A stretch of 47,521 nt of DNA, taken from a virus. Positions 1 through 47,072 of the stretch are shown one piece after another. A program made the translations under genes and the position numbers. Each line of letters begins with the position of its first letter. Within the stretch, counting starts at the first letter, position 1. Location of the stretch: positions 1-47,521 of IMG/VR virus record IMGVR_UViG_3300025086_000050; one strand, given 5' to 3'. Under the pieces are notes generated by a model. The model ran no database searches. It saw nothing but the letters and a program-made list of their open reading frames with translations, and had not been told where the DNA came from.

Positions 1-290
1 GAAATGTAAAGAAAAATTGCTTAGGACAGTCTTCATCATTTAACGTTTTCTTTATAGTATTAGCTATAAAAGCTCCACTCATATTAGAACAGTAGGAAGT
101 CGCTTTAGCATTACAGGGTTCATCTTCAGCATCTGAATCAGAATACCATGTTCTCTTATATTCTTTAAGAGTTGGTTTTCTAAATGTAAACTGATGATAT
201 TCCTCCGCACCCATACGACCATCTATTAAAAGATAAGGTTTATTCTTACCTTTCATAGATTCCTCCGCGGCTTCTAAGCGACTATCCATA
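1..290. repeat. Direct terminal repeat, left copy (circular junction)
   Basis: Matches 47232-47521 end to end with no gap; differs at 8, 27, 32, 136 and 245, so 285 of 290 bases agree. This is the signature of a circular or circularly permuted genome assembled from a mixed population rather than a true terminal repeat, which would be exact. Confidence 0.85.
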
Positions 291-628
291 CTGTCAAACC
301 CTAAAACTACTATGTCACCTTCTCCTATGGGTTTAATGAACTTGGTAAATCTACCATATTGTTCATGTACACGTACTTCTGGGTTTATATTTTCTAAATG
401 TTCACGTAATGCTACTACTTTAGGCTTTTGTATATCCTGATATATGTAGTGGCTTACACCAACATTTTGTATCTCAACTTTATCTAAGTCATACAATACA
501 AATTGCATTGCACCCATTCTTGCTAGTTGAGTAGCTGCGGAACTACCAATAGCTCCGCAACCAAGAATGTGAAAGATTTTATCGTCAAAATCACTGACTA
601 AATGCAAGCTTCTTTCATTAATTCGCAT
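1..628 (-). CDS. E1-like (ThiF/MoeB/UBA superfamily) ubiquitin-like activating enzyme, 3' end cut by window edge
   Basis: Predicted to adenylate the C-terminal glycine of the neighbouring Ubl and pass it on as a thioester. Starting at ATG 628, the translation shows a Rossmann glycine loop GCGAIG (residues 23-28), the acidic DLD at 47-49 and N55, the lysine-bearing QKPK at 67-70 and FDSMDSR at 111-117, in the order expected for E1 enzymes. The usual arginine of the NxxR motif is absent (the sequence is NVGVSH). Cys172 and Cys180, in PCNAKATSYC, are candidate catalytic cysteines. The gene overlaps the end of the JAMM gene by 11 bp, so it is translationally coupled. The last 9 codons lie beyond base 1; they are seen in the second copy at the right end, giving 218 aa in total. 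It is a compact single-domain E1 with no fused E2. Family call is strong; the substrate is inferred from neighbours. Confidence 0.88.
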   Translation of the reverse strand, partial: MRINERSLHLVSDFDDKIFHILGCGAIGSSAATQLARMGAMQFVLYDLDKVEIQNVGVSHYIYQDIQKPKVVALREHLENINPEVRVHEQYGRFTKFIKPIGEGDIVVLGFDSMDSRLEAAEESMKGKNKPYLLIDGRMGAEEYHQFTFRKPTLKEYKRTWYSDSDAEDEPCNAKATSYCSNMSGAFIANTIKKTLNDEDCPKQFFFTF

Positions 629-1535
629 TCTGTTTACTCCCTTCTATGTTTTCAAACATATCATGTGCATGTAGATATAGCAATTCATTATCTATATCTG
701 TTCTATTGCCTTTTGATATCTTCTTTAATACCCTAACATTATATTGCTTTAGTCTTTCATTTATAGATTTTACTCCTTTACGAAAGACTTTTAGCTTTAT
801 AGAACCATCAGTAAAATTATCAGATAATTTATCCATTTCTTCTACACATGCTTCAAATAATGCATCAGGTACTCCTGTTAACTCAAGTTCATTTTCATCT
901 TCCCATAAACCATACGTATAGCCATAATTATAGCCATATCCATGTGCTGGTTTTGGTTGCTTCCATAAATTACCTTGAGTTCCACCATATGTAATAACAC
1001 GTGGTGTTTCTTTAGAACATAACTTTTTAACTTCTGCATCTATTGCATCATTAACATCATGTTCTTCTTGAAGGAAGTTTAATTCTACATTTTCTTCGTG
1101 TAGGAATGGTTTAAAGAATTGAATACGTAATTTATATTCTCTCTTTAAATTAACTACTAAAGATAATGTCCAGTCATCAGCAGGGTGCCCTAATATAGTA
1201 GCATCGTCAGTACCTGACCAAAATGCTCCCATTGTATGATGACTATGCCACCAACAATGCCTTACATCGTTACCATGCTTGCCTATCATTTTAGAATAGT
1301 GAATTGCTAATTGACCACCGTCCATTTCACAATTACTAGCTGATATTTCTTGTTTAAGAATTACAGGGTCTTCTAATATATAATCACCCTCTTCATCTTC
1401 TAAAACAACTAACTGACCACCTATTTCAGACGTAAATTGTCTATAAGCTGATTCAGCATATGCTATGACTTTATCGAAGTTCTCGTGTGATATCCAGAAC
1501 TTTTTGTTTTTATTATTTTCAGGTTTAGTATTCAT
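618..1535 (-). CDS. JAB/MPN (JAMM) metallopeptidase, deubiquitinase-like
   Basis: Predicted zinc isopeptidase that would mature the Ubl by trimming its two-residue tail and/or remove it from targets. It is 305 aa from ATG 1535, which overlaps the stop of the E2 gene and sits behind an AGGAAGGTG ribosome site; a longer in-frame start at 1616 lies inside the E2 gene and is unlikely. The JAMM signature is intact: Glu37 in SEIGG, then His97-x-His99-x7-Ser107-x2-Asp110 (HSHHTMGAFWSGTD). The C-terminal half (about 160-305) has a Tyr/Gly-rich YGYNYGYTYG stretch and a helical tail I do not recognise. It sits between E2 and E1 in one operon. Catalytic family is near certain; cleavage specificity is inferred. 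Confidence 0.9.
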   Translation of the reverse strand: MNTKPENNKNKKFWISHENFDKVIAYAESAYRQFTSEIGGQLVVLEDEEGDYILEDPVILKQEISASNCEMDGGQLAIHYSKMIGKHGNDVRHCWWHSHHTMGAFWSGTDDATILGHPADDWTLSLVVNLKREYKLRIQFFKPFLHEENVELNFLQEEHDVNDAIDAEVKKLCSKETPRVITYGGTQGNLWKQPKPAHGYGYNYGYTYGLWEDENELELTGVPDALFEACVEEMDKLSDNFTDGSIKLKVFRKGVKSINERLKQYNVRVLKKISKGNRTDIDNELLYLHAHDMFENIEGSKQNAN

Positions 1536-3333
1536 ACCTAACACCTTCCTCTCTCCCGTTAAGGAATTTATTATATGTCCAATAATCTTCTCTAGCTGAC
1601 ACATATCTTTGTGCATATAGCCAAGAATAGTGATTATTTTCTATATCGTTATTTGTTAATTTACTAATAGCTTCTTCAAAGCCCATGTTTTCAGTTTGTA
1701 ATGCTAGCTCTTCATACATTTGTTTATTGTCCATATATACTTTATTTAATACAAAACCACGTGCATACATTTCATACATTAAGACAATATTATGTTCATT
1801 AGGTCCTGTTAATATAAAATTATCTACAATTTCACGATAATCATTCCAGTCTCTAACGTCAATAAATGAACCAAAAGTACGTTCTATAGTTCTACGTTTG
1901 AATTTATTAATACTTTTAAAGTAATATAAATCAGCAAACATTTCATATATTTTGCTAGTATCTACTTCACCATCTAAATGCGTACATAGTATATTAAATG
2001 CTTGTACCCAATTGGAATCAGCTACATCTGCCCATGATACTTTATCTGTATTAAGCCTTGCATATGTTCTACATGTTTCTGTAATAGCACATCCATTGCA
2101 AAACTTATCAAGAAAGCTTGATTTTTCATCAGCATTAGCATGCTTGATATATTTAAAACATGTTCCACTACTACCTGATATATGAGCTCTTACATCTGCA
2201 TCCCATTCTTCTCTAACTCCAAATGATACTTTAGATAGATTGTTTAATGGAGATGTAACTCCTACTGAAAATGAATTAGCCCATATATTAAGATACATTT
2301 TAAGTAATGTAATATTACCTTGAAATATAGCTCCATATATATCATTACCTAGTTCACCTAAGCAAATATTCCCATTGCCATACGTGTTGAAATGATTTAC
2401 CATATTAGTTCCGCTATATGTATCAGTAGTATATACAAATGGATGCTCTATTCCATATAAATGTGGAAATTTATGAGCCGCTGTTCCAACATGTTCAGTT
2501 TTAACCATATGTTGACCTTTTGCTATTCTGCGATGATTTGTAACCAATGTTACTAAATCTACAGTAAAACATACTACTAATTTACCATAAGGCAATTCAG
2601 CATATTCTCTACTCATATCAGCATTAGTTACATTGATTCTTACATCATCTAATAACACTCTTATATTAATAAACCATTTAGCTGGATTAGATTCTCCAAA
2701 ATGGTCATATTTAATATTATTAGCGTGTTCTATATTTTCATACATTACTGTGTTCCATACACCAGCAATTTCATTATTTTCATTAATCTCAGGATATAAT
2801 CTACCAACTTTATCGGTTCTAGCATCATCATAGTTGCCACCACGATATCCTCTTAATGTTCTTCCGAAATGTGGAATAGGACTAATATCTACTTTAACAT
2901 TATCATATTCTGTTGTAAAACTATTTAACAATTGATATAATAATCCTTTTGCTTCATTTAAATCTTCATCACTATAAAGCTCTGTTCCATCTTTTCGATA
3001 ACGATATAACATATTATCAAGTTTATGTAATGAATCTTGAAAGTTTTGATATCGCCAGTTATTTCTTTCTAATAGTTTATGAATACTATTAGCTCCGCGT
3101 CTCTTTTTCCAATGTGGATATAAAACGTTATTTATACTTTTTTTAAGTTTATTATATGTTCCTGGTTGCCATCTAGCACTTCTAGTAGCTACTAAATCCA
3201 TTTCATATTGTTCATTAAACTTAGCTAATTGTTCTGAAAATTCAGCGAATCCTGATAATTGTTGATAGTTTAAATGACTTAAATCTAAATCAGGTGTCTC
3301 TGGTTGTTCTGTAAAATCAAATGAATATTGCAT
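1525..3333 (-). CDS. Large E2-like (UBC fold) ubiquitin-conjugating protein with extra N- and C-terminal regions
   Basis: A 602-aa protein whose centre reads as a prokaryotic E2. Hydrophobic strands at about 219-265 are followed by HP at 297-298 (the HPN position of E2s), then GNICLGEL with the candidate catalytic Cys324, then a long amphipathic helix to about 356. Residues 1-200 are helical and charged, and unrecognised. Residues 412-421 hold a Cys-x2-Cys-x5-Cys cluster that could bind metal; the rest is helical and unrecognised. Its length is far above the 140-180 aa of a bare E2, so it is a fusion. Its place between Ubl and JAMM supports the role. The ATG at 3333 is preceded by AAAGGAGT. 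The E2 call rests on motif and context, not on an alignment. Confidence 0.72.
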   Translation of the reverse strand: MQYSFDFTEQPETPDLDLSHLNYQQLSGFAEFSEQLAKFNEQYEMDLVATRSARWQPGTYNKLKKSINNVLYPHWKKRRGANSIHKLLERNNWRYQNFQDSLHKLDNMLYRYRKDGTELYSDEDLNEAKGLLYQLLNSFTTEYDNVKVDISPIPHFGRTLRGYRGGNYDDARTDKVGRLYPEINENNEIAGVWNTVMYENIEHANNIKYDHFGESNPAKWFINIRVLLDDVRINVTNADMSREYAELPYGKLVVCFTVDLVTLVTNHRRIAKGQHMVKTEHVGTAAHKFPHLYGIEHPFVYTTDTYSGTNMVNHFNTYGNGNICLGELGNDIYGAIFQGNITLLKMYLNIWANSFSVGVTSPLNNLSKVSFGVREEWDADVRAHISGSSGTCFKYIKHANADEKSSFLDKFCNGCAITETCRTYARLNTDKVSWADVADSNWVQAFNILCTHLDGEVDTSKIYEMFADLYYFKSINKFKRRTIERTFGSFIDVRDWNDYREIVDNFILTGPNEHNIVLMYEMYARGFVLNKVYMDNKQMYEELALQTENMGFEEAISKLTNNDIENNHYSWLYAQRYVSAREDYWTYNKFLNGREEGVRYEY

Positions 3334-3356
3334 TTTTATTTACTCCTTTATTTATC

Positions 3357-3414
3357 TCAGGGGAGATTGTATCACACATCTATCTCGATAGGAAAGGATA
3401 AGTATCCCCCCTGA
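3357..3414 (-). other. Structured inverted-repeat element between Ubl and E2 (58 nt)
   Basis: Seven-base arms TCAGGGG (3357-3363) and CCCCTGA (3408-3414) enclose hairpins CTAT-CTCG-ATAG (3380-3391) and GGAT-AAGT-ATCC (3396-3407). It lies just upstream of the E2 ribosome site in the leftward transcript. It belongs to the stem-element family of this arm. An alternative ATCTC/GAGAT pairing overlaps its left arm. Confidence 0.45.
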
Positions 3415-3431
3415 TGTATTCTAGTATTATT

Positions 3432-3565
3432 CAAATAAGCTGATTAAGGATTATAGGGCGTGACTTGACTATCTATTGCTAATTTTCCATTGACTCATTA
3501 TAATGGAGTCTGGACCATAGCTCAATGTACTGTGCGTTTCCTATTCCTTAAAAGAACCTTATTTG
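3432..3565 (-). other. Structured inverted-repeat element between Ubl and E2 (134 nt, nested stems)
   Basis: Outer arms CAAATAAG (3432-3439) and CTTATTTG (3558-3565) are perfect. Inside, TTAAGGA (3444-3450) and ATAGG (3453-3457) pair with CCTAT (3540-3544) and TCCTTAA (3545-3551), with a 2-nt bulge. Deeper in, GACTC (3491-3495) pairs with GAGTC (3505-3509) around an ATTATAATG loop. No ORF covers this. It could be an RNA processing or attenuation element that sets the Ubl to E2 ratio. Confidence 0.5.
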
Positions 3566-3580
3566 TACCCAATGTGATAA

Positions 3581-3838
3581 TTACTGATTACCACCTCTTT
3601 TATTACCTGCAACATGAACAACTCTATCATCTTCAGCAATTGGTGTTGCATCAGAAGAGTCAACATCATTTACACAAATATGACCTGATAATCCTAACTC
3701 TTCTCTTAATGCTCCAACTGTATTTGCTGCATTATTTTCAGTTGCTGCCATTACTACTCTTGTTGGTTGTAATGTCATTGTACCATTCATTAGTTGAATA
3801 GTTGTTTCTGTTGTAGTTACTACTGTTTCTGTAGCCAT
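3581..3838 (-). CDS. Ubiquitin-like beta-grasp modifier (ThiS/MoaD/Ub-like) with C-terminal Gly-Gly-Asn-Gln
   Basis: An 85-aa protein predicted to be the modifier that E1 activates and E2 conjugates. Residues 14-30 and 52-78 give the alternating strands of a beta-grasp fold, and VGALREELGL (41-50) is the central helix. The segment from DVDSSDATPIAEDDRVVHV to the end reads like ThiS/MoaD and Ubl tails. It ends Lys80-Arg81-Gly82-Gly83-Asn84-Gln85, so a GG terminus would be exposed only after removal of two residues, a natural job for the adjacent JAMM. The first ten residues are Thr-rich. The ATG is 2 bp after the upstream stop, with the ribosome site inside that gene (AGAAAGAGAG). It is the first cassette gene in transcription order. 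Its distance from sulfur-carrier paralogues is untested, but E2 and JAMM argue for conjugation rather than sulfur transfer. Confidence 0.82.
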   Translation of the reverse strand: MATETVVTTTETTIQLMNGTMTLQPTRVVMAATENNAANTVGALREELGLSGHICVNDVDSSDATPIAEDDRVVHVAGNKRGGNQ

Positions 3839-4221: not shown

Positions 4222-4791
4222 CTAAAGATAGTAGATACCTTTATCTTTATTAAAGCTTAATTTTCCACCATTTTTCATTAATATAGGAAATAATTTTTCA
4301 ACAGATTTATGTGCTAAAGCATGACTGCTAGCATTACATAGCCATAAATTGTCAATATTATTATTAGTTTTAACACAATCGATATGATGGACAAATTCAT
4401 CTTTCTTTAATTGTCTACCTAAATGTTGTTCCATTACATATCTATGTTTATAAACCCATTGTCCTTTATACCTATTATCCCATATTCTTTTATATACATA
4501 GCCATCTTTCTTTACTCTCCAACCATCTTTATATACTTTTCTTTTATTCATATACATTTGCATATATTGTTGGCATTTTTTAGTACAATATGCTCTTTTA
4601 TTATTTAAAGCATCTAATCTTTGTGGACATGTATCACCACATACAGAACATTCTGTTATTCTATATGTAGTATGCTGAAATGGTCTAATAGCATCTTTAC
4701 TAATAGATTTTACCTTAATAGTATAAGTGCCATTATAATTATCTTTAACATGATTATCTACATCTTTGTTAATTAATTGATTAATTGTCAT
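4222..4791 (-). CDS. HNH endonuclease (HNH_3/homing type) with N-terminal zinc knuckle
   Basis: A 189-aa protein. Cys residues CSVCGDTC and CTKKC (about 48-75) form a zinc-binding knuckle. The HNH core is FVHHIDCVKTNNNIDNLWLC (about 133-152), with HH as catalytic histidines and N-x-x-x-N-I-x-N typical of HNH_3 homing nucleases. A YVYKRIWDNRYKGQWVYKHRYVME segment before it matches the usual DNA-binding lead-in of that family. It stands directly upstream of the Ubl-cassette genes. ATG 4791 is preceded by AAAGGAGT. It may be a free-standing mobile gene that arrived in this gap; no intron is seen around it. Confidence 0.85.
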   Translation of the reverse strand: MTINQLINKDVDNHVKDNYNGTYTIKVKSISKDAIRPFQHTTYRITECSVCGDTCPQRLDALNNKRAYCTKKCQQYMQMYMNKRKVYKDGWRVKKDGYVYKRIWDNRYKGQWVYKHRYVMEQHLGRQLKKDEFVHHIDCVKTNNNIDNLWLCNASSHALAHKSVEKLFPILMKNGGKLSFNKDKGIYYL

Positions 4792-30320: not shown

Positions 30321-33300
30321 ATGTCATTATTTACCCCATATAATGTGGGACAGCCACAGCCAGAGGAGCAAACTGCTGTTGGTCAGGAACAACAATTCCA
30401 ACCTACGTGGGACAATACACAAACACGTGATGCTATTAAACAATATAATAGTAGTCCTGAATTTTTTACATCTTCTGATTTAAATAATATTAGACAACAT
30501 GCCGCTCATCACAATTTACCTTTTTATGAAGGTGAGTTTGATTTAGTTGATGCATTTAAACAAGCAGGCGCTGGATTCTTTGAAGGATTTACCACGTTAA
30601 ATCTTATGGAGCCTGCAGATAATGAATACGAACAAATATTTAGAAACTTAGGACATCTTGCAGGATTTGCTCCTGGTATTATGGCTACTCCATTTAACTT
30701 TGGTTATAAATTAACAGGTTCTGTTGGATTATCTAAGTTAGCAAAAACAGCCGCAGCATTAAATGATAAATCAGTTCCTATGGCAGGAGCTAAATTTCTT
30801 ACTACAAAAGCAAAAGAAATTGCAAAACCTGTATTTAAAATGGCATCTACTGGACACGCTGGTGCAGCCCAAGATGTTATGGGATTTTTAACAGGTAATC
30901 AAGCACGTCATATTATGGAAGGAGCATTTCATTTAGGAGCTGCTTCTGCTATATCGTCATGGCAGGGTGGTGTAGATGAAATGATGCATTCATTTACACA
31001 TGGAGCTATGGCTGGAGGAGTGTTTAGGTCTATTGGTAATTTAGCATTAACAGGTTCTGAAGCATCTAATAAAGTTATACGTGGTATTTCAGGTTCGTTG
31101 TTTATGGGTTTACCATCTACTATGAGAGGCGCTACTACTCCAGAACAAATATATGAATACGTGATGGGTGCTTACTTTGGAAAGTCAGAACGTCCATGGA
31201 CTGAAAAGGGAGCACGTAAAATGTTAGGCAAGATGGAAGAGTTGGCTAAAACTAATCCTGAAATGCAAGAAAAAATGTTGCCTGAATTACATCCTGAATT
31301 TGCAGAATTGCCTCCTGAAGTACAAAAACTAACAAAACAATATGCCTCTAAAGGTATTCCTGGTACTGATTTTAAGGGCTATGCAACTCCTGAAGAAAGA
31401 GCATTGATGAATGCTATGCTTGGGAAAGATATTAAACCTAAAAACTTAGAAGATATTCCTGCAGAAATAGAAGGTTATGAAGTAGAGCAAGTAATAGGCG
31501 CAGCAGGAGAGCCTGTATTACGTTATAAAAAAGGTTTTTTAGATAGGTTTATAACACGTATGGCTAGTGGTGGCGCTGAGGGTGCTGATAGGGCATGGGC
31601 TAATGCAGCGTCTAAATTAGGAATACCTGTATTTAACTTTACATTTGGTAAACATCAAGCACAAGCTATGCTTAACAAAGGATTGCCAAGAAAGTTAAGT
31701 GAAGTAGAATTAGAAAGAGCAAATACAGAAGTTGCTAAGTCAAGCGAAAGCTTAGATAGGCCTGTAGATAAAATGTCTGAATACGTATATAATTTAATTA
31801 GGCGTAATTGGTCTATTGTAAATAACACAGATGCTGTATATGCTGTAGCACCTATTCTGCGTCAAGGTAAACTAACTATGAAAGCTGTTGATGGTGGTAC
31901 TGGTTGGGGTGTTGATATGGCTATACGTAATAAAAAAGATGTTTACGTATTTGATAACAGTTCTAAAGATAAACATCAAGGAGCAATTACAAATAGATGG
32001 CATAAATACAATCGTACACTAGGAAGATTCGAAGAAGTTGTTGAGCCTCCTAAGCCCCCAAAAAACTGGGCTGGTATAGGAAGTCGAGAAATCAGTAAAA
32101 GTGGCGAGAATGCTATGGAATCGTTCTTAAATAGGCATTTTGAAGGTGTAGAAGTAGCTCCTACTAAGAAAGAAGCTGCAGAAATCAAAAGCGCAAAAGA
32201 ACGAGGTGAACAATTACTTGAAACTACTATTGAAAATACTAAAAAACGAGTAGAAGATATTGAAGAGACTATTGAACTAGGCGAAGCTCAATTAACTGAT
32301 TTAGTTGTTGGAGAACAAATAGCTAAGGTTAAAGAGAAGACTATTGAACGTATTAAATTAGAAACTGATATTAGCGATTTATATTTAGAACTTGGTGAAT
32401 TAGAAAAAGAATTAAAGATATATACAGGAACACGTGATATTTCATTTGTAGATAAAGTTGATGGCAAAGTGTTAATGGCTAAGCCTTTTGTAGAAGAAGC
32501 GAATACAGGTGACACTAGTCCTGGTATTACAATGCAACCGACTATCACTGCAGTTCAGTTTGTTGGCAAGCATTTAGAAAGCATGTATGATACTGCGCTG
32601 TCTCCTGGAGCTAGAAAAAATCAAATAGCAGGGCAATTAGTATTTAAAATGGCAGAGTTATCTGATTTAGCAAGGGTTGACAAAATTAACCGTTCTGAAG
32701 AATTAGTAAGTTGGGTAAAGTCATATGCTAAAAAGAATAATGTTGATATAACTCTTAACACAGAGGCTAAAGGCCAATTACGACAGTGGATGTCAAGGCA
32801 AATATTAGATGCACAAGTAGAGTATATTGGTATTAAAGATGGAAATATAAACTTTTTACTTAAAAGAGGTAAAGATGGAGAAGTATCTGTTCCATATACA
32901 TCTTCAGGAGTTCCTAAAAGGAATTATGAGCCATTAAAATTAATTCAAGAAATTTATAAAAAAGCAGGTGGCAAGTCGGATAGGCCTATAGCTATTGCAG
33001 ACCATATTACGTTAAAAGATAAAGACGGTAGAACAGTGGATATGGAAATGATGCGATATCAAGATAAGATAGAACGTGATTTAAGATTTAAAGGCAAGTC
33101 TCCAGAGCTAGCTAGAGCTTTAGCTCAAAGACAATTTAATGAGTTTAAAGCTAATATATTTAAACAAATGAATCAAAAAGAGTATTATTTATTTAGTGGT
33201 CGTGGAGATTCAGATAGAATGTATTTTGCTAAATATAATCCTAAAACTAATGAATCATTGTCGGCAGGGTTGCTAAAAGAAATACAAAAAATGGGTGGCA

Positions 33301-36300
33301 TGTCTAATGATGCAAATAGAATGCTTAAAAGTTTTCAAAGAGACTATAACAGATTAGCAGGTTTTGATAAAAAAACATTAAAAGTTATTCACGATAAAGC
33401 GTATATGTCTAATCTATTATACGACCTACAATTAAATGGGCTTGACGTTTCTACTCCTACAGCTATTAGAGCTAGTGCTAAAATGATGTTTTCTGGTAAA
33501 GGTGATTGGATACAAAATTCTAAAGGTTTTAATAAACGTTCTCAAATATGGCTAAACAATGGGTATGCAGGTGACCCTACATTTATTAAGAATTATAAAA
33601 CTGAAAAAGGTAATAATGTTAAGCTAACTGATGGTAAAGCACGTTATATATTAGCTGAAGACTTACCTCAATCTATACGTAATAAAATGGATAAAGACCC
33701 GTTATATTCTTCAGATATAACACGTAAATCTACTGAATTAGGTGAGCATATTGATGGTGTTATTATTACTGAGGGTAGAACATTACGTGCTTTAAATGCA
33801 GATGCTGGTATGCCTGAACATCACGTTCAAAACAAGTCTTTTATAGTATCTCCTAATGCACAATATGGTGCGTTGCTTGGCAAGTATATGATGCATGATG
33901 CTGGAAATGCTATGTCTAAATACATGAGAGATGCTGGTATTAACTTTATTGTACAATCCTCTGCTGCAAAGCAAATAGGATTACGTAAAATGGGCGATTA
34001 TAAAGTAACAAAAACTAAAGGATTAGATTTATTAGGTTCTGAAATATATGATTTAGATTTATCACATATTAAATATAACTATTCTGTTAAAAGTGATGTG
34101 CATATGACTAAATGGACACGTGCTGTTAAGCAAATGTTAGGCTCGTTAATGAACAATAGTCAAACTCCATTTAAAAATGAAACTATTAAAGATATGCTAA
34201 ATAGTTTAATGGATAACAGGTTTACTGGAGAAGCAAAAGCTAATAAAGAATATATAGATTATTTAAAACTTGATGCTAATGGTAAAAAACAAAAGATTAA
34301 TAGTATTATTAAAAATATTGAAAACCTTGGTATAGAGCAAATGATAGAAGGTATTAGAAGACCTGGCAATAATTTGTTTGCTGAGCGATTATATGATTAC
34401 ATGCTAACAAAGAATAAAGAAATATTAGAAGCAGATTATCGTGAAGGTGAAATTAATGAAATGGAATATCAAAATGCAATGTTTGAAATAAATGCAGAAA
34501 ATGTTTCATATCAAAAGAAATTAAAAGCATCTAAAGAATGGAGAAAGCTAAATCCAAAATCAGCTAAAAACTCTGTTGATGCTATGTTATTTGATAAAGA
34601 TGTACGTAATTATAGAATGCAAGTTATTAGAAACTTTGTTGTAAGAGAAGCAACACGTCCTGTTATGGCTAACTCTGCTATAGCTAGAATGAGACCTTAT
34701 GATAAAGCTTTACAAATGGATTTAGATGGCGCTAATCCTAGATTAAAAGAACTAAATGCTAATGATAGATTATTCTTTTTAGATAACGGTTACAAACAAA
34801 TGAAGATAGATACTGGAATTTCTGGATATGGTAAAAAAGGTATTGTTACTTTAGGCGAGCTATGGGAAGGTCGTAAAGGTACATATAAAGATGTTGCCCC
34901 TGAAATATTTGAAACATTAGCATTACGTGTTCCAATGGATTCTGTGTCTGGTGCACATGGATTAACCTTTAGAGGCTTTACTGGTAGAGAAGGATATGGC
35001 ACATTGTTACATTCTAGAACTATGAGAGCGCTAGGTGGAGCTGATTTAGATGGTGATGAGGCACATATTTATTTTGGTGGCGAGAAAAAAGGATTTAAAA
35101 AAGCATGGCGTGAAGGATTTGAAGCTAATAAAGAAGAATTTTATTATACTAAAAATGGTAAACGATATGTTGGTGACAATAAAATGTCAGAAATTCCTGC
35201 CGAATTAAGAAAAGAATTAGGATTAGACCCAAAAATTAAAACGTATCAAGATTTACTTACTACGACAAAAGAATTTAAACCTGAAGAGCGTAAATTACTT
35301 AACTCTAGAGGTGCTATGTATTCATTACATGAACGTAATAGAATATCAGAAGCGGCTAGTAGAGGTAGGGCTCAGATGGGAAGTAGTGCTGTAGTGCCTA
35401 AACAAATGATGCAACAATTACATGCTATGTTAGGTGGTGGACAAAGTGAAAAAGCTACAAGTGATAATTTTACTATATATAAAAAAGGTAAATGGAACGA
35501 AGCGTTAGGTAAATATCAGTCTACAGAGTATAAGGTCATTATAAAGCCAAGAAAGGACTCTAAATGGCGAAAACTAGCTCAAGAGATAGGTAGAGCCCAG
35601 GTAGCCTTTTCTTCTGACCCTATGGATGAATTAGGGCTTAAGTCGCCTGATTACTGGTTTAAGACATTACACAATGCTCATTTTACCGTAGATATAGTAA
35701 ATCCTAAAACAGGTAAAAAAGCAAAAGGTATTACTTTAAAAGATTTAAATGCTTGGGATTTAAAGAAGGGTAAATACGCAACTATTAATAACTTAAATAA
35801 AGCGTATTGGGGTAGAAATTATACTGAAGGTAGACGGTATACAATGGATGAAATACGTTCTATGGGAGAAGCTGTATATGACTTACCATTAGAACAACGT
35901 AATAACTTCCTAGTTAAAGTAGGCGAAAAGTTAAATCCATTAGATTGGAGTGATAATGCAATTGGCAGGATGGATGCAAAAGCTGTATTAGAGATGTATA
36001 ACCGTATTAATGAAGAAGTAGCTAGTCCTAGATATAAATATTTAAAAGAACTATTAGGTAGAAGCTCGTTTTCTGTTCCTGAAAGTAAAGAGATGGTAAG
36101 AGCAATATTTACTATCGATAAAAGTAGAACTACTGTTAATAAAGGTGAAAAAATAGAATTTGGTTTTGACCTATGGAATCCTAAAAGACGTAGAGAAATT
36201 GCTAGAGATGAAGTTGTTTTTAACGAAGCTATTAAAGGTTTAACAATTAAGAAAAAGTTAATTGATGCTACAAAAAAAGGCAATAATGAAGATATTACAG

Positions 36301-39300
36301 CTGCACGCGAAAGAATATTATCTGAAATAGCATTAAAAGCTGAAGATTATTTTATTAATGATATAAATGACATGGCAACATTTAAAGTTATATCAGATTT
36401 AGCACGTAATATGTCACAAGCAGAATTACAAATAATTCCTAAGCTACATAGATTTGCTGAAAGTTTAAAAGACAAAAGCTATTTGATGGCTCATCAGCGT
36501 AAAAATACAGGCAACGTAGACTTTAATACTTTTACTCCTGAAATGGTTAAAGAAATTAAAAAATGGATGAAAGATAGTAAGTTACAAAGTTTAATTCCTG
36601 AAGAATGGAAAACTGTTAAAGAAAAAATATCATCTACTATTGACAGGGCAGAAATAGATGTTGCAATACGTAAATTTAGAAAAGATAATAAATTAAGTAA
36701 AAAACAATCAGAAATGCTAGATTACTTATTTCTTGGCACATATAAACGTGGTAATTTAAGCGGGATTGCTCAATTGGAAAAGAAACTAGATACTAACGAC
36801 CCTTTAATGCGTGATATGATTAGTTACATGAAAGGGTTAGCTGCAGGTACATCGATGTCAAAATTAGGATGGAACTCTGAAGCGTTGTCTTCTGGAAAGT
36901 CAGCTATTAACTATGCAGGTGCCATTACTCACTTCTTTAGCGAACCTTGGAAAGCTCCTACATCAGAGCAAATTAAAAGTGCTCAAAATGTTGCAGAAAA
37001 TATTAGAGAAACAATTAAAAAAGAAACTGGAACAGACTTCTTTGAACAAGGGGTATCTGAAACAATTGAACGAACAACAGGCTTTGAAGGATTAAAAGAA
37101 GGTGTTGAATTAAATGACTTGTCTCCAACATTACGTGCTCCTGTTACTAAATTACTATCTTACATTAAAGGTGAAAATCAAAAATTTCAACAAGAATTTA
37201 ACGGTGTAGTAAGAAGTTTGTTAGGTAAAGATATTAATGTATTAAATTTAAATGATTATAATATATTAAACAGATGGTTTAAAGATGTTAAAACTGGAAC
37301 TATTTGGCAGCAAATATGGGGGAAAGATAGCCCAACAGAGCTAGCTAAAAGGCATTATTGGTTATTTCCTAAAACTATCAATAGAGAGTTAATGAAAGAT
37401 GATATACGTCTTATGGAAGAAAATGGTTTATATCTTGCACAAGGTGGCAGAATATTAACTGGTAAAGTAATGCGACCTACTCAATACGTAGATATGGTAC
37501 AACGTTGGATAGCTCGTACTATGGATGGTGCTTCTGAAACTGGTGACGCATATGTTAAACTGTTAAAAGAAAAACTATTATTTTCTAATTCTATAAAAGA
37601 TGGTGAAACATTACGTCAAATAGCAGTACGTGAAAGAGAGTATAAAGGTTGGGAGTCTTTAAAATCATTAAGTGTTGAAGATAAAATACACTTAGTAGAA
37701 TATCGTGACAGATATAATGATGTCTTAAAATTCCATGGTGAAAAATTAAATAAAACTTATCAAGTGCAAATAGAAGGTAAACGTGTTGAATTAACAGGTA
37801 GAGAAATTGTAGACCGTATCAATAAAGAATACACTAGCTATTTTGAAGAAATGCATAAATTTATTAGAGGTGAAGAAAATTGGCTAGAAAAGAATAAAAT
37901 GATTAAAGGTTATTATGGTGGAGATAAAAAATCTCCTATTATTGATAATAAACGATTTAGCAAATTTCTATTAGACTCTTGGCGTAAAGGTGAAAATGTT
38001 ACTACTAAAATAGGTGTTGACAACCTTAGAGTATTATCACGTTCATTAATGATAGACATGGCTAAAGGTACTCCTGAATATGCACAAGCTTTAAAATCTA
38101 AGCCTATTGAACCAACAGGTAAATGGCGTGGTTCTTTTGATTATTACTTTCCACATATGCATTTTAATAAAAAAATGGCTGGTGAAGGTATGAAAAGATT
38201 AATGAAAAAAATCTATGAAACGCCGTTATCAGAGTTTGATGCAGACCCTAAAAAAGCAAGAGCTAAACGTGATAATGAAGTTAAAAAAGTAATATATAAA
38301 AATCATACTTTAACAGGTGATTGGCAATTTAAAGAAGTAGAAGACTGGGCTAACCATGATAGAATTATGGATGAAATAGCTGAATCTAGAGCTGCTAAAA
38401 AAGAACAAGTAAAATGGCCTGTTGACTTAACTAAAGCTGGAAATATGAACAGTAGAATTTCACATATTCCTGGATGGTCAATTGATGCATCAGCACCTGA
38501 AGCTTATTCACGTGCTATTGTTAATACGTATTATAGACAGCTATCTCAAATATTATCACGTAATATTATGCAAGAAATGTATGGTAAAATGAAACCAATC
38601 TGGGGTGAAAAGCAAGCTGTAGCATGGCAAAAGTTTATGCAACTATATGTACAAGATGCTATTGGTAACCCTACTGTAATACCTGAAACATATTTAAATG
38701 ACCCTACTATGAAATTACGTGGAACTCCATATGCGTGGTGGGCTGATAGTAATGTTGAAAAAAGAATTAATAAAGCATTAGATGCATTTGGAATAGGGAA
38801 TAAAGATTTGCCAAAAGAAATGCGTGGTGTTGATATGCAACAACTAAGACATTGGTCTAATCTTGAAGGGCAATTTGAAATGGCTGCACTATTAGCGCAT
38901 CCTAAGTCTGCTATTACTAACGTGTTTGGTGGTACTATGCATACGGTTGAATCTGCAGGTTGGACTAATTGGCGTAATTCACGTAATATAGAATGGTTAA
39001 GACAAAACATTAATTCTAAATGGAAATCCATGGAAGATGTAATGGAATTTGTAATTGAATCAGGTGTATATCCTGAATATATGATTTATGAAGCAGGTTT
39101 AAATAAAGAAATACGTCAAGGTAAAAATAGAGAATTTATTGAAGATGTAGCTAAAAAGCTTGCTAGACAACCTGAAATGTCTGAAACTTCATTAAAAGAA
39201 ATTGCTAAGCAATATGGTGTTAAAGATAAAATAACACAATTTGCTGCTAAATTTATGACTGTTCCTGAGAAAATGATACGTAGAGATGCTTTTATGGCGC

Positions 39301-40064
39301 ATTATATTCAAGCATGGCAAAGATATGGTGGCGCTATTAAAGACCCTAAACATCCATTCTTAGTAGAACAAGCTAAAAAAGGTGTACAAGCTACACAATT
39401 CTTATATTCAGCTCCATTTAGACCTGCATTTGCACGTACTGCTCTTGGTAAGGTTATGACACGTTTTCAATTATGGTCGTGGAACTCTGTAAGATTTAGA
39501 AATGACGTTTATAGACAAGCAAAAATATATGGCTTACGTCCTGGTTCGGAAGCGTTTGATAGATATGCTAGAACTATGCAAATAGATATGTTTACTTTTG
39601 CATTAGCTAATATGTTTGCTTACTCAATATTTGAGACTGCTTTACCTGCTCCATATAACTGGATGCAAGATACTGCTGATTGGGTATTTGGTAATGAAAA
39701 AGAAAGAGATAGAGCATTCTTTGGGCAATGGCCGAAACAACTTGCTCCGTTGCAGATGGTAACTCCTCCCATCCTTCGGCTGTTGCCTACATCTATGAGA
39801 GCTATGGTAGATGATGATTGGTCTAAAATTAGTAAATATTATATTTGGACTATGTTCCCATTTGGAAGAGTAGCACGTGATTTAGTTGGACCTGGTAATC
39901 TTGTTGATAATCCAATACGTATAATGGAAAAGACTAGTGGATTTCCGTTATTACAATTACAAAGAAAAGGAACAGGTTTACAAGCAGAAATAGAATCAGG
40001 GGAAAGAGAATTGCCACCTACACCTGGCGGTGGCTTATCTCCATTTGGGTTTAATGATGAATAA
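30321..40064 (+). CDS. Giant polyvalent-like virion protein (3247 aa) with SLOG domain and RNA polymerase-like DxDGD core
   Basis: About a fifth of the genome in one ORF, last of the late arm, with a TAAGGAGGAG site. N-terminal 330 residues resemble the membrane-active ejection proteins before it. Residues about 410-610 look like a circularly permuted SLOG domain: SGGAEGAD (416-423), DGGTGWGVD (524-532), AGIGSRE (584-590). Region 1145-1225 has DG, then Lys1172 and Lys1188 in a K-x15-GK-like setting (NKSFIV...LLGKYMM) and SSAAKQIGLR. Residues 1533-1585 carry LGGADLDGDE with Asp1575, Asp1577 and Asp1579, as in NADFDGD of RNA polymerases and the DLDGD of QDE-1-type enzymes. The C-terminal 350 residues (RFQLWSWNSVRFRND; FETALPAPYN) are distinct and unknown. 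Packaging with DNA is inferred from place and size; polymerase activity is a hypothesis. Confidence 0.7.
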   Translation: MSLFTPYNVGQPQPEEQTAVGQEQQFQPTWDNTQTRDAIKQYNSSPEFFTSSDLNNIRQHAAHHNLPFYEGEFDLVDAFKQAGAGFFEGFTTLNLMEPADNEYEQIFRNLGHLAGFAPGIMATPFNFGYKLTGSVGLSKLAKTAAALNDKSVPMAGAKFLTTKAKEIAKPVFKMASTGHAGAAQDVMGFLTGNQARHIMEGAFHLGAASAISSWQGGVDEMMHSFTHGAMAGGVFRSIGNLALTGSEASNKVIRGISGSLFMGLPSTMRGATTPEQIYEYVMGAYFGKSERPWTEKGARKMLGKMEELAKTNPEMQEKMLPELHPEFAELPPEVQKLTKQYASKGIPGTDFKGYATPEERALMNAMLGKDIKPKNLEDIPAEIEGYEVEQVIGAAGEPVLRYKKGFLDRFITRMASGGAEGADRAWANAASKLGIPVFNFTFGKHQAQAMLNKGLPRKLSEVELERANTEVAKSSESLDRPVDKMSEYVYNLIRRNWSIVNNTDAVYAVAPILRQGKLTMKAVDGGTGWGVDMAIRNKKDVYVFDNSSKDKHQGAITNRWHKYNRTLGRFEEVVEPPKPPKNWAGIGSREISKSGENAMESFLNRHFEGVEVAPTKKEAAEIKSAKERGEQLLETTIENTKKRVEDIEETIELGEAQLTDLVVGEQIAKVKEKTIERIKLETDISDLYLELGELEKELKIYTGTRDISFVDKVDGKVLMAKPFVEEANTGDTSPGITMQPTITAVQFVGKHLESMYDTALSPGARKNQIAGQLVFKMAELSDLARVDKINRSEELVSWVKSYAKKNNVDITLNTEAKGQLRQWMSRQILDAQVEYIGIKDGNINFLLKRGKDGEVSVPYTSSGVPKRNYEPLKLIQEIYKKAGGKSDRPIAIADHITLKDKDGRTVDMEMMRYQDKIERDLRFKGKSPELARALAQRQFNEFKANIFKQMNQKEYYLFSGRGDSDRMYFAKYNPKTNESLSAGLLKEIQKMGGMSNDANRMLKSFQRDYNRLAGFDKKTLKVIHDKAYMSNLLYDLQLNGLDVSTPTAIRASAKMMFSGKGDWIQNSKGFNKRSQIWLNNGYAGDPTFIKNYKTEKGNNVKLTDGKARYILAEDLPQSIRNKMDKDPLYSSDITRKSTELGEHIDGVIITEGRTLRALNADAGMPEHHVQNKSFIVSPNAQYGALLGKYMMHDAGNAMSKYMRDAGINFIVQSSAAKQIGLRKMGDYKVTKTKGLDLLGSEIYDLDLSHIKYNYSVKSDVHMTKWTRAVKQMLGSLMNNSQTPFKNETIKDMLNSLMDNRFTGEAKANKEYIDYLKLDANGKKQKINSIIKNIENLGIEQMIEGIRRPGNNLFAERLYDYMLTKNKEILEADYREGEINEMEYQNAMFEINAENVSYQKKLKASKEWRKLNPKSAKNSVDAMLFDKDVRNYRMQVIRNFVVREATRPVMANSAIARMRPYDKALQMDLDGANPRLKELNANDRLFFLDNGYKQMKIDTGISGYGKKGIVTLGELWEGRKGTYKDVAPEIFETLALRVPMDSVSGAHGLTFRGFTGREGYGTLLHSRTMRALGGADLDGDEAHIYFGGEKKGFKKAWREGFEANKEEFYYTKNGKRYVGDNKMSEIPAELRKELGLDPKIKTYQDLLTTTKEFKPEERKLLNSRGAMYSLHERNRISEAASRGRAQMGSSAVVPKQMMQQLHAMLGGGQSEKATSDNFTIYKKGKWNEALGKYQSTEYKVIIKPRKDSKWRKLAQEIGRAQVAFSSDPMDELGLKSPDYWFKTLHNAHFTVDIVNPKTGKKAKGITLKDLNAWDLKKGKYATINNLNKAYWGRNYTEGRRYTMDEIRSMGEAVYDLPLEQRNNFLVKVGEKLNPLDWSDNAIGRMDAKAVLEMYNRINEEVASPRYKYLKELLGRSSFSVPESKEMVRAIFTIDKSRTTVNKGEKIEFGFDLWNPKRRREIARDEVVFNEAIKGLTIKKKLIDATKKGNNEDITAARERILSEIALKAEDYFINDINDMATFKVISDLARNMSQAELQIIPKLHRFAESLKDKSYLMAHQRKNTGNVDFNTFTPEMVKEIKKWMKDSKLQSLIPEEWKTVKEKISSTIDRAEIDVAIRKFRKDNKLSKKQSEMLDYLFLGTYKRGNLSGIAQLEKKLDTNDPLMRDMISYMKGLAAGTSMSKLGWNSEALSSGKSAINYAGAITHFFSEPWKAPTSEQIKSAQNVAENIRETIKKETGTDFFEQGVSETIERTTGFEGLKEGVELNDLSPTLRAPVTKLLSYIKGENQKFQQEFNGVVRSLLGKDINVLNLNDYNILNRWFKDVKTGTIWQQIWGKDSPTELAKRHYWLFPKTINRELMKDDIRLMEENGLYLAQGGRILTGKVMRPTQYVDMVQRWIARTMDGASETGDAYVKLLKEKLLFSNSIKDGETLRQIAVREREYKGWESLKSLSVEDKIHLVEYRDRYNDVLKFHGEKLNKTYQVQIEGKRVELTGREIVDRINKEYTSYFEEMHKFIRGEENWLEKNKMIKGYYGGDKKSPIIDNKRFSKFLLDSWRKGENVTTKIGVDNLRVLSRSLMIDMAKGTPEYAQALKSKPIEPTGKWRGSFDYYFPHMHFNKKMAGEGMKRLMKKIYETPLSEFDADPKKARAKRDNEVKKVIYKNHTLTGDWQFKEVEDWANHDRIMDEIAESRAAKKEQVKWPVDLTKAGNMNSRISHIPGWSIDASAPEAYSRAIVNTYYRQLSQILSRNIMQEMYGKMKPIWGEKQAVAWQKFMQLYVQDAIGNPTVIPETYLNDPTMKLRGTPYAWWADSNVEKRINKALDAFGIGNKDLPKEMRGVDMQQLRHWSNLEGQFEMAALLAHPKSAITNVFGGTMHTVESAGWTNWRNSRNIEWLRQNINSKWKSMEDVMEFVIESGVYPEYMIYEAGLNKEIRQGKNREFIEDVAKKLARQPEMSETSLKEIAKQYGVKDKITQFAAKFMTVPEKMIRRDAFMAHYIQAWQRYGGAIKDPKHPFLVEQAKKGVQATQFLYSAPFRPAFARTALGKVMTRFQLWSWNSVRFRNDVYRQAKIYGLRPGSEAFDRYARTMQIDMFTFALANMFAYSIFETALPAPYNWMQDTADWVFGNEKERDRAFFGQWPKQLAPLQMVTPPILRLLPTSMRAMVDDDWSKISKYYIWTMFPFGRVARDLVGPGNLVDNPIRIMEKTSGFPLLQLQRKGTGLQAEIESGERELPPTPGGGLSPFGFNDE

Positions 40065-43320: not shown

Positions 43321-43803
43321 TTATCCTCCCATTACATCTGATTTTGAAAGTTTACGTAATATGTAATCCTGAGCTGGCTTAGCAATTTTACTTAAGAATC
43401 TTAATAAACTTGCAAATTGATTATGTGTCAATGGACCTTTTCTACGGTTACATCTATCACATATCATTTGCAGATTTCCTGCTGTAGAATCGCCTCCTAA
43501 GCTAAGTGGAATAATATGGTCGCAAACCATATTATTAATATTGAGTTTGTTAACACAATATCTACATTTGCGACCATATTCTTTTAATAGGATATCACGT
43601 ATTTCTTTAAGACTCATGCAAAATTCTACTTCATATTCTTTACTACGTCTTTTTAGAGTAGTTTTTAAAGTAGATGATTTTTTCATAAGTCTATGAAATA
43701 CATTTCTCCAATGATTTCCATGTAGCTTTTTAAGTTTCTTTTGAAACTTTTGTTGCCATTCAGAAATTACCTTTGTTTGTCTTGTTGGTTTACGATATAC
43801 CAT
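43321..43803 (-). CDS. HNH endonuclease (160 aa)
   Basis: CRYC and CDRC pairs bind zinc around the HNH core MVCDHIIPLSLGGDSTAGNLQMIC, with DH, N-L and the closing C-x2-C in standard order. Basic N-terminus. ATG 43803 is chosen; a GTG at 43809 is also in frame. Located between the helicase gene and the membrane-coil gene; either a packaging nick factor or a free homing gene. Confidence 0.88.
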   Translation of the reverse strand: MVYRKPTRQTKVISEWQQKFQKKLKKLHGNHWRNVFHRLMKKSSTLKTTLKRRSKEYEVEFCMSLKEIRDILLKEYGRKCRYCVNKLNINNMVCDHIIPLSLGGDSTAGNLQMICDRCNRRKGPLTHNQFASLLRFLSKIAKPAQDYILRKLSKSDVMGG

Positions 43804-44002
43804 GACCACTTAAGATGTTATCTTTGTTTACTCCAAATATAAATGTAAAACGTAATTTATATATTTGAATTGTTAAAGATGTTGAGCTTCCTATTTCATT
43901 GTTTATAGACGTAATTCCTATTAAGAATATTTTAAACAATCTAATATAAAAGCAGTTAAGTGTCAAGTTTATCTCAACCAAGAAGTTCATGATTTTATTC
44001 AT
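43790..44002 (-). CDS. Small hydrophobic hypothetical protein (70 aa)
   Basis: TTAGGAGAACAT upstream and 8-bp overlap with the helicase gene. Phe/Ile/Leu-rich sequence with FLVEINLTLNCFYIRLFKIFLIGI near the N-terminus suggests membrane association. Unrecognised and could be a spurious overlap, though the ribosome site is strong. Confidence 0.45.
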   Translation of the reverse strand: MNKIMNFLVEINLTLNCFYIRLFKIFLIGITSINNEIGSSTSLTIQIYKLRFTFIFGVNKDNILSGHGIS

Positions 44003-45770
44003 ATGTTCTCCTAAGTCTAAAACTTTCTGTCCATTCTACATCGCACTCCCAATTGGAGTCGCCGTCTGTATTTTTGAGCATCTTTATTGTTTTCTTAGGG
44101 TTATCAGCTTGTCCATCAACTGAAATAACTTTTCTACTAGCATTCTCTATGGCTCCAGAGCCTTTGGCTGAATATAATGTCAGCTCATTTGATTTACTAT
44201 GTTCTCTGCCAACTTGAGATACTTGTATAATAATTACATCCATATTAACTGCGATATTAGATAAGCTATGAGAAATATATTTAATTTTCTCATGTTCACT
44301 TCTTCCATTACCACGTGTATCTATTAAATCGATATAATCTACTATTACTAGTGATGGTTGCAACTCTTTTATCTTTTGCTGTATTTGGTCTATAGTAGGT
44401 GATATTGTTTGAAACGTGATGTGAGCTAAATCATCTTTATGCTTTTCAAACACGCCTTCAAAATTATCATTTACCTGCTCTTTATTTAAGCCAGATACAA
44501 TTTGCAATCCTCTTCTATGCATATACCAATCTGCTAATTCTAATGAAAGAAATAGTGTTGGTACTTGCCATTCAGGATTGATAGAATTAGTTGCAAAATC
44601 TACTCCTAAAGCTAAATTTTGAACAAATGTACTTTTATTTGAGCCTGTTCGCCCAAATACAGTAATAAGTTCACCAGGATATATATCACAATCAACGTGA
44701 TTCATACCCAAAGCTTTTGAAAGATTTATAGTTCGACCACTAAAGTCAGTTGTTAACCTTTCTTTTAATTTAGCTTGTAGAGTTTCTACTGATGCTGTTT
44801 CAATCATATAGTCTTTACGTTGAAAATGTATACATTTAGTTTTACAATGCTTTTCCATTATTTCATCTTTACAACCGTATTGATAACCTGCATTATAAAC
44901 ACGTTCAACTATACCATTTAAAACTTCTTTATTTAGCTGATTTTTATTCCATTCCGTTAGAACAGCTTTTGCATAATAACTAGGTACGCCATTTCGTCTT
45001 AAGTGACTGACAATACGCATGGCTGTTGTATTTCTACAACCATCTTGTGGACCTTGCATAAGCATTTGCTGCACACAAGGTACTATTGTCAACGGTTCTC
45101 TAACTTTATTTAATGCATCTATCTTTGGAACGTTAGTTTGCACGTACTCTGATAATTCTCCTTCTCCTAATAAAGACTGATACGGGAACTCTATTCTTGG
45201 CTTTTTTGCAAGCTCTATGATAGATTCTGCTTTTTCATTCATTATCTCTTTTATAGTTAAAGGTATCTTATACAAATTAGTTTTTTGATTTAGAGTGTGC
45301 TGTACTCTGTACAATGCAGTACGAATATACACCATATAATCAGCATGTGGAAATAATTTCTTCATCGTATTCTTGACAATATATGGCAAGTCTGTTGATG
45401 TTGGAAATTCAAAACAATCATTACTTAAAACGATATGATATCCACTTCCTGAAAAATAAGGTTGCATACTTTTATGAGTACAGCCTAACTCCTCTAAATC
45501 AAATACAATACTACGTGCTAAGTTGAGAGTATGCTCGTCTGTATTATCCTGTTTATCAATATCAATTAACACTTTATCAATACTACGTTCTCCATAATAA
45601 TTCTTTAGCGTGTGTCCATTCTTTTTAGCGAACTCTACAGCTTCTTCATTATATGTATAAGCAGAACGATATAACGTGCTATTCATATCAATATATTGGA
45701 ATAATTCATTTTTAGGTATTAGCATTCCTCTATTGAATGGTGTACCTTGTGCTATCTCAACATATTGCAT
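43995..45770 (-). CDS. Primase-helicase fusion: AEP primase plus DnaB-like helicase (591 aa)
   Basis: N-terminal archaeo-eukaryotic primase core: LIDID with Asp70 and Asp72, SGSGYH (107-112), and RTALYRVQHTLNQKTNLYKIPL as the third motif. Cys300/309/313 may bind zinc. The C-terminal RecA-type helicase shows Walker A GRTGSNKST (373-381), Walker B VIVDYIDLI (475-483), QVSQVGREHS and GSGAIENASRK. It should prime and unwind the phage replication fork. TAATG coupled to the upstream gene. Confidence 0.88.
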   Translation of the reverse strand: MQYVEIAQGTPFNRGMLIPKNELFQYIDMNSTLYRSAYTYNEEAVEFAKKNGHTLKNYYGERSIDKVLIDIDKQDNTDEHTLNLARSIVFDLEELGCTHKSMQPYFSGSGYHIVLSNDCFEFPTSTDLPYIVKNTMKKLFPHADYMVYIRTALYRVQHTLNQKTNLYKIPLTIKEIMNEKAESIIELAKKPRIEFPYQSLLGEGELSEYVQTNVPKIDALNKVREPLTIVPCVQQMLMQGPQDGCRNTTAMRIVSHLRRNGVPSYYAKAVLTEWNKNQLNKEVLNGIVERVYNAGYQYGCKDEIMEKHCKTKCIHFQRKDYMIETASVETLQAKLKERLTTDFSGRTINLSKALGMNHVDCDIYPGELITVFGRTGSNKSTFVQNLALGVDFATNSINPEWQVPTLFLSLELADWYMHRRGLQIVSGLNKEQVNDNFEGVFEKHKDDLAHITFQTISPTIDQIQQKIKELQPSLVIVDYIDLIDTRGNGRSEHEKIKYISHSLSNIAVNMDVIIIQVSQVGREHSKSNELTLYSAKGSGAIENASRKVISVDGQADNPKKTIKMLKNTDGDSNWECDVEWTESFRLRRTYE

Positions 45771-46381
45771 TATAGATTATCTAATGCCAATGAACCTAGT
45801 TCATTACTATCTACAGAATTAACAGGTTGAGCTTCACCTGTATCTTCTTTAATATAGCCTCTAGATTTCATCCAATCTATATCCTTTTGTAATTGCTCTT
45901 TGCAATTTCCACCATTAGGATAGATTTTATAGTGAGCAACATTATAAGCTTGCTTACCAGGTTTCTTAGGTGCTGCTTTATAGAAATAAGCTAGATATTT
46001 ACCATTTGAACCAGGAGTGTCTCCATCCCAATCAGTTGTATATTGATTTAAATAATCAGCAATACTATCTATTTTATTACCTTGAGCATCTTCCCACTCA
46101 CCTTTTATATTAATACCAGCATCACAATTGATTGCTGCGAAGAATGCGTACATTCTTTTGATTACACTACCACCTGTAACATTGCCATTTGGTTCTTTTT
46201 CAAAACCACCAACAATATTAGCATTTCTAGTGTATTTACTTCCATCTTGTAATAACTTTACTGAAAGATATATATCAGCCCATTCAAAATCTGCTGATTT
46301 ATCTTCTATATCCACTATAGTACATGGACATATTCCACTAAAGTTACTACCACTTGTATTTTCAGGTTTAAATAATGCCAT
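45770..46381 (-). CDS. Probable ssDNA-binding-like replication protein (203 aa)
   Basis: Starts MALFKPENTSGSNF at ATG 46381 behind AAAGGAGG; beta-rich OB-like first half, acidic C-terminus (NELGSLALDNL) as in SSBs. Lies between the ATPase and the primase-helicase, the usual place of phage SSB partners of Sak4-type ATPases. Family is not certain. Confidence 0.5.
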   Translation of the reverse strand: MALFKPENTSGSNFSGICPCTIVDIEDKSADFEWADIYLSVKLLQDGSKYTRNANIVGGFEKEPNGNVTGGSVIKRMYAFFAAINCDAGINIKGEWEDAQGNKIDSIADYLNQYTTDWDGDTPGSNGKYLAYFYKAAPKKPGKQAYNVAHYKIYPNGGNCKEQLQKDIDWMKSRGYIKEDTGEAQPVNSVDSNELGSLALDNL

Positions 46382-46382
46382 A

Positions 46383-47054: not shown

Positions 47055-47072
47055 TTTGCTCCGTTTCTGAAA

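Follow-up and report, generated by a model that had tools for sequence, protein, structure and literature searches.

A probable phage-owned ubiquitin-like conjugation cassette beside the replication genes of an IMG/VR virus, with counterparts in crAss-like phages

Ubiquitin-like protein (Ubl) conjugation is a cycle in which the modifier is trimmed, adenylated and loaded as a thioester onto an E1 enzyme, transferred to the cysteine of an E2, coupled to a lysine via an isopeptide bond, and removed again. The bacterial Bil (ISG15-like, BilA–D) and Bub systems both consist of a modifier, an E1, an E2 and a JAMM protease, with the BilA modifier being built from two fused (tandem) Ubl domains, and ThiF and JAB members also occur in the PRTRC cassettes carried by plasmids and integrative elements. 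The present analysis concerns a four-gene cassette on IMG/VR virus record IMGVR_UViG_3300025086_000050 (positions 1 to 47,521, i.e., the whole stretch of 47,521 nucleotides that was analysed, referred to as the window). This cassette is probably a phage-encoded system for both Ubl conjugation and deconjugation, and the machinery for it (i.e., a Ubl, an E1, an E2-like protein and a JAMM protease) is in all likelihood present.

An original prediction made from the letters of this DNA had named four leftward open reading frames (ORFs) for these parts, all of which are indeed found on the minus strand. Listed with the second copy of the E1 end and a cysteine cluster in the E2-like protein, they are:

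3581–3838, minus strand: ubiquitin-like beta-grasp modifier of 85 amino acids (aa), ending in ...GNKRGG-NQ, with Gly82-Gly83 at nucleotides (nt) 3590–3595
1525–3333, minus strand: E2-like (UBC) protein of 602 aa, with a putative UBC core at about residues 122–400 and helical N-terminal and C-terminal domains
2071–2160, minus strand: four-Cys cluster (C392-x19-C412-x2-C415-x5-C421) after the E2 core, 93–99% conserved in window-type E2s
618–1616, minus strand: JAMM/JAB metalloprotease of 332 aa, with E64, H124, H126, S134 and D137 invariant in 60 relatives
2–628, minus strand: E1-like adenylating enzyme (ThiF match, 8.6e-21), with the first 209 of its 218 aa, completed over the junction at 47203–47231
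47203–47520, minus strand: C-terminal part of E1 in the second copy of the terminal overlap, with two aa variants and supplying the stop codon

The genes had been described as adjacent and mostly overlapping, which holds for E2, JAMM and E1 but not for the Ubl gene, which lies 247 nt apart. Similarly, the E1 with its GCGAIG motif is present but cut at the left edge of the window. Since positions 1–290 equal 47232–47521 (with 5 mismatches), its end (...FFFTFPALIVGKPK) could be placed at 47203–47231, and a full-length E1 of 218 aa is present in relative L001. The same terminal identity means that the phage genome (approximately 47.2 kb) is circularly permuted or terminally redundant. From this 290-bp overlap and its 5 mismatches, the genome also looks complete and the assembly appears to be a mix of two close variants.

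When compared with Bil and Bub, the window cassette has the same four functional parts, but it is phage-borne and replication-linked, and contains a large E2-like protein with helical and Cys-rich additions. Moreover, its Ubl of 85 aa forms a single beta-grasp domain, in contrast to the fused double-Ubl modifier of the Bil type. In being carried by a mobile element and having ThiF and JAB members, it resembles PRTRC; its proteins stayed below the PRTRC cut-offs of NCBIfam (14.9 vs. 101.8 bits, and 17.7 vs. 144.75 bits), and no PRTRC match of the Ubl or the E2 was found. With Cap2/Cap3 of CBASS it has in common the E1 and E2 activities accompanied by a JAMM deconjugase, and the window E1, which is matched by the E1-E2 models of PADLOC, resembles the E1 half of Cap2. 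However, Cap2 is an E1-E2 fusion, which conjugates the CD-NTase (PMC10286901), whereas the window phage and its relatives encode E1 and E2 in separate ORFs and a dedicated Ubl is present. Prokaryotic operons combining Ub, E1, E2 and JAB members (types 6a–6e) have been described in bacteria (Iyer et al. 2006, PMC1779556), type 6d of which has, as in the window, a small, free-standing Ubl with glycine at its C-terminus together with a separate E2, a JAB and an E1. The phage case in that study pairs a Ubl with a JAB in tail assembly, without mention of E1 or E2 (PMC1779556), unlike the window, where the cassette is located in the opposite-strand replication arm instead of in a tail cluster of the lambdoid Ubl/JAB type.

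Profile searches of IMG/VR revealed 420 relatives of the E1 and at least 332 of the JAMM protein. Examination of 80 loci for E1 and 80 for JAMM yielded 68 distinct loci in which E2, JAMM and E1 all occur, a set that was selected for their presence and that informs on gene order, not on frequency. In all 68, E2, JAMM and E1 lie on one strand and in the same order (with JAMM and E1 overlapping in 63), and a Ubl ending in GG precedes E2 in each of the 53 loci that have at least 1.5 kb 5′ of E2. The four-gene order for which a search of phage genomes had been proposed is thus recovered wherever the sequence extends far enough, and the arrangement is therefore not due to chance.

The plus strand of the window carries structural genes (terminase, portal and major head protein), and the early arm lies on the minus strand, from approximately 7 kb leftwards and across the contig junction. 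Its transcription order is Ubl, a 247-nt leader, E2-like, JAMM, E1 (across the junction), and then three genes of the replication module, which for their part recur 3′ of the cassette in the relatives:

46383–47087, minus strand: Sak4-like ATPase annealing single-stranded DNA, the first gene 3′ of E1, linked in 34 of the 68 loci (often 40–140 nt past E1)
45770–46438, minus strand: conserved protein of 222 aa, linked in 31 of the 68 loci
43995–45770, minus strand: primase/DnaB-like helicase in the same module as Sak4, linked in 60 of the 68 loci

This layout supports the earlier claim that the phage owns the complete set and keeps it next to replication genes in its early arm. In annotated phages, relatives of E1 were found in 77 records, nearly all of them Bacteroides or Flavobacterium phages or uncultured crAss-like phages, and the crAss JAMM has relatives in 74 records from these same groups. 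The phages crAss001, DAC15, cr111_1, frurule, cr128_1 and FpV4 have a common gene order, among genes for Sak4, primase, uracil-DNA glycosylase and exonuclease, so that both cultured crAss-like phages (crAss001 and DAC15) and Flavobacterium phage FpV4 have a matching cassette. Its genes are annotated there as "thiamine biosynthesis", "metalloprotease" or "hypothetical"; at L006:3998-7669, L010:5602-9009 and similar crAss loci, it is the probable E1 that is called "thiamine biosynthesis protein" and the probable E2 and Ubl that are called hypothetical. In crAss001 (gp76–gp79) and its relatives, the order is Ubl-like protein, Cys-motif protein, JAMM and ThiF-like E1, and both the E2/JAMM overlap and the replication neighbourhood resemble those of the window. 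In contrast, the crAss-like genomes are near 100 kb, their Ubl has a long C-terminal extension and KSGA, their E2 is without the four-Cys cluster, and one more gene follows E1. This extra, divergent gene lies directly 3′ of E1 in the crAss/FpV4 cassettes (L006:7669-8481, and equivalents in L007–L010) and was not seen beside the E1 of the window phage; it is possibly an accessory or target-recognition factor.

The window cassette hence belongs to a type that is widespread among phages, crAss-like phages of the human gut included, and is not the isolated oddity that it seemed when no well described phage system of its kind was known. A core, replication-linked, phage-owned version was nevertheless not found in the literature searched, outside which lay most subscription journals, bioRxiv and the main Bub paper. 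The kind of machine is already known from bacteria (Bil, Bub and Cap2-Cap3).

The window E1 displays a GCGAIG nucleotide loop, D47/D49, N55, K70 and D112, as well as a Cys172 (nt 113–115) within EPCNAK. Together with the loop in the form GxGxIG, each of these residues is invariant among 43 E1 relatives, and GxGxIG, D47/D49, K70 and Cys172 stay invariant or almost so when the E1s of crAss and FpV4 are included. Cys172 and Lys175 are kept from the window phage to crAss001, DAC15, cr111_1, the frurule phage and FpV4, whereas Cys180 is not, and from its position Cys172 is probably the catalytic cysteine. A profile search against solved structures returned UBA6 and UBA5 first, followed by MccB, ThiF, Cap2 (7tsq; 1.5e-7) and BubCD (4.8e-5). 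In a phylogenetic tree, all phage E1s (both the window type and those of crAss/FpV4) form one group apart from the bacterial ThiF/MoeB-type proteins (support of 0.997), as judged against 42 bacterial ThiF-family proteins from one class, with the E1s of Bil, Bub and Cap2 left out. A strict but not exhaustive scan with two short patterns, run over 84,980 genomes of bacteria and archaea, revealed no real relative. Two short partial E1 matches in Bradyrhizobium were taken as chance, no JAMM being found there.

The JAMM site that had been reported as intact (E37, H97, H99, S107 and D110, numbered from Met28) corresponds to E64, H124, H126, S134 and D137 of the 332-aa ORF, the true start of which is likely Met28 (nt 1535). 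All five residues of the full E..HxH..S..D signature are invariant over 60 JAMM sequences, although the Pfam JAB match of the window protein by itself remains under the cut-off (E=0.0014). Among solved structures, the archaeal Rpn11-like deubiquitinase of Caldiarchaeum was the sole relative found (1.5e-5), and the commonest, though weak, NCBIfam match is PRTRC_A (51/60). Searching 190 genomes of one class with the JAMM profile gave one partial match (6.7e-4), which fell outside the catalytic part and was discarded.

E2 enzymes carry the signature HPN[IV] ... [IV]C[LI] ... W ... P, and the 602-aa protein has the conserved series HP[FY][IV] ... NxC[FL]G ... W ... PLN, which follows the same order and was therefore counted toward its assignment as an E2. 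In the window, it reads HPFV (the HP motif at residues 297–298) ... GNICLG around Cys324 (nt 2362–2364), and Cys324 and Trp351 are invariant among 59 relatives with a mean identity of 14%. An AlphaFold model (predicted local distance difference test, pLDDT, of 88) shows a helix (122–140), four strands (146–151, 221–236, 243–259 and 282–290), the Cys loop, and helices from residue 326 onwards, a predicted topology that follows UBC order apart from an insert of roughly 60 residues. Among the few structural alignments of the model, over residues 128–395, are UbcH5c and UFC1, which adds to the case, if with low scores. Judged by its topology, motif and context, this protein would be E2-like, and it is the least certain of the four parts. 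It is also the fastest-evolving part of the cassette, with its C-terminal half being the least conserved region. The four-Cys cluster, which is absent from the aligned crAss E2 homologues, may form a zinc or Fe-S site.

The window E2 could not be related to the crAss E2 by profile comparison, gave no tblastn match among phage records and, like JAMM, no match among plasmids; a Prok-E2_B search was uninformative, yielding no match anywhere, controls included. The E2-like model does weakly match (E=0.029) a 435-aa crAss-like protein of cr128_1. The cr128_1 gene directly 5′ of the JAMM gene (homologue of crAss001 gp78) encodes 435 aa, and from length and organism the matched protein would be the product of this gene. 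Gene order, motif and the weak fold match thus together suggest the link between the window and crAss E2s.

The Ubl model (pLDDT of 81) shows one beta-grasp domain (beta-beta-alpha-beta-beta). Its best structural alignment is with ThiS (Z of 7.1 with VIA), with MoaD and ubiquitin-like proteins also being matched, and the Foldseek list includes Caldiarchaeum ubiquitin, NEDD8, Urm1 and SAMP1 at weak E-values. The only invariant columns among 49 relatives (mean identity of approximately 25%) are those of the GG pair. GG forms the very C-terminus of eight of the 53 Ubls; most of the remainder have tails of 1–18 residues, and in a few 60–126 residues follow GG. The Ubls of L043, L062, L067 and L074 carry 107–126 extra residues past GG, and the extensions of the latter three have a common YPFHxLK...VAAAMR-like segment, possibly a second domain freed by the JAMM protease. 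In FpV4 and the crAss phages, the Ubl domain ends before its extension with KSGG and KSGA, respectively. The link to the window Ubl is suggested by gene order and motif, along with a weak profile relation. On the opposite strand of the window Ubl gene, a plus-strand ORF (3490–3801) was taken as its shadow.

In the cycle that we infer for the cassette, i.e., for all of its catalytic steps and for its target, the JAMM protease would trim the two-residue NQ tail of the Ubl to expose ...KRGG, after which E1 would adenylate the exposed glycine with ATP and form a thioester, probably on Cys172. The Ubl would then be handed to Cys324 of the E2-like protein and joined by it to a target lysine, with the putatively metal-binding, helical C-terminal half of this protein perhaps serving as substrate binder, and the JAMM protease would finally take the Ubl off its target again. 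Because eight Ubls have no tail to be trimmed although the active site of JAMM never varies, this protease does not seem to serve maturation only and probably also deconjugates. The four parts are present with intact, invariant catalytic residues and in a fixed gene order, and purifying selection acts on each of the four reading frames (ratio of nonsynonymous to synonymous substitution rates of about 0.1–0.5, highest for E2).

Several points weigh against a Ubl conjugation system. The evidence is drawn from sequence, which in itself shows no conjugation and names no target. Furthermore, no profile ties the 602-aa protein to a known E2 (in Pfam, PHROGs, NCBIfam, PADLOC and PDB profiles, the latter queried with the whole protein, its core and the crAss homologues), Foldseek found no significant match of the whole 602-aa model in the PDB, and the scores of a second structural aligner with residues 128–395 (Z of 3.8 for UbcH5c, over 131 residues at 4.2 Å, and 2.4 for UFC1) are low and insufficient alone. 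The crAss Ubls have KSGA instead of GG and relate only weakly by profile to the window Ubl, whose nearest family by profile is ThiS, and the curated NCBIfam model nearest to E1 is ThiF. These last two affinities, together with ThiS being the top VIA match, are what would be expected if Ubl and E1 formed a thiocarboxylate for a cofactor or tRNA (of the ThiS-ThiF or MoaD-MoeB type), with the E2-like and JAMM proteins being otherwise employed. We consider this very improbable, since E1 scores well below the cut-offs of both ThiF (76.4 vs. 159 bits) and MoeB (58.6 vs. 275 bits), none of 27 phage E1s has the CxxC zinc motif that most sampled bacterial ThiF-family proteins have, and E1 is accompanied by an E2-like gene with an invariant Cys and by a JAMM protein with its active site. 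The original prediction had itself specified that a lack of beta-grasp or UBC folds, or clustering of E1 with sulfur carriers, would speak against it; the Ubl is modelled as a beta-grasp, the 602-aa protein shows a UBC-like topology despite its weak structural matches, and the phage E1s stand apart from the ThiF/MoeB-type proteins even if ThiF is their nearest curated profile.

As to what a Ubl conjugation system would modify, the fixed position of the cassette beside Sak4 and the primase-helicase in distantly related phages favours a phage DNA replication or recombination protein (Sak4, the primase-helicase or a drafted host protein), a proposal that we put forward tentatively. Its strong rival, ranked second and on the whole rather unlikely, is that immune or housekeeping proteins of the host are inactivated through tagging by the phage at an early stage of infection. 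The location in the early arm, the fast evolution of E2 and of its C-terminal half in particular, and a biochemistry that fits an arms race in which bacteria use related machinery for defence (PMC10286901) all agree with such a role. Anti-defence genes are, however, usually sporadic and variable, whereas here the order is the same in 68/68 loci, replication linkage is seen in 60/68, and the arrangement extends to crAss phages from a different environment. The tail assembly cluster of lambdoid phages contains a Ubl domain paired with a JAB domain (PMC1779556), and by analogy the Ubl might be attached to proteins of the capsid or tail, where it would serve assembly or receptor binding; this is improbable for a cassette that lies on the opposite-strand early arm, apart from the plus-strand structural genes, and that adjoins replication genes in relatives. 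Least probable of all is that the phage Ubl, E1 or JAMM acts as a decoy that competes with host Bil/Bub tags or deconjugates them: all parts do resemble those of host systems in kind, but a decoy would not require that all four active sites stay intact and conserved between such divergent phages. Defence takeover, virion modification and a decoy had been the functional suggestions of the original prediction.

Between the Ubl and E2 genes, the 247-nt gap is itself conserved and contains the following element:

3357–3414, minus strand: RNA hairpin in the E2 leader, with 19 pairs kept in 6/6 relatives and two-sided changes at 3 pairs

Its covariation score was reached by no shuffle, and it occurs as a single copy in the window. 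Six related sequences being few, the conserved hairpin is a strong lead rather than proof, and it could control how much Ubl is made relative to the enzymes.

Elsewhere in the window, a protein of 3247 aa without Pfam match (30321–40064, plus strand) takes up one fifth of the genome. An HNH endonuclease gene (4222–4791, minus strand) lies near the cassette, with a similar-looking gene at 43321–43809 (minus strand); the site of the former is occupied by a different gene in L003 (4373–5149) and by none in L002.

Prokaryotic Ubl conjugation is known mainly as bacterial anti-phage defence, and here phages themselves appear to own the full machinery, long kept and placed in their replication module. 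For genome annotation, this means that the "thiamine biosynthesis protein ThiF" of these phages is probably an E1 and that one of their "hypothetical proteins" is probably an E2. Since cultured crAss-like phages have a matching set, protein tagging by phages and its targets become testable with crAss001 in Bacteroides intestinalis. It is conceivable, if still somewhat doubtful, that reversible Ubl conjugation is a core and ancient part of the replication and recombination programme of many phages, from environmental to gut crAss-like ones, and such a programme might, with equal reserve, be to viruses what ubiquitin/SUMO control of replication is to eukaryotes.

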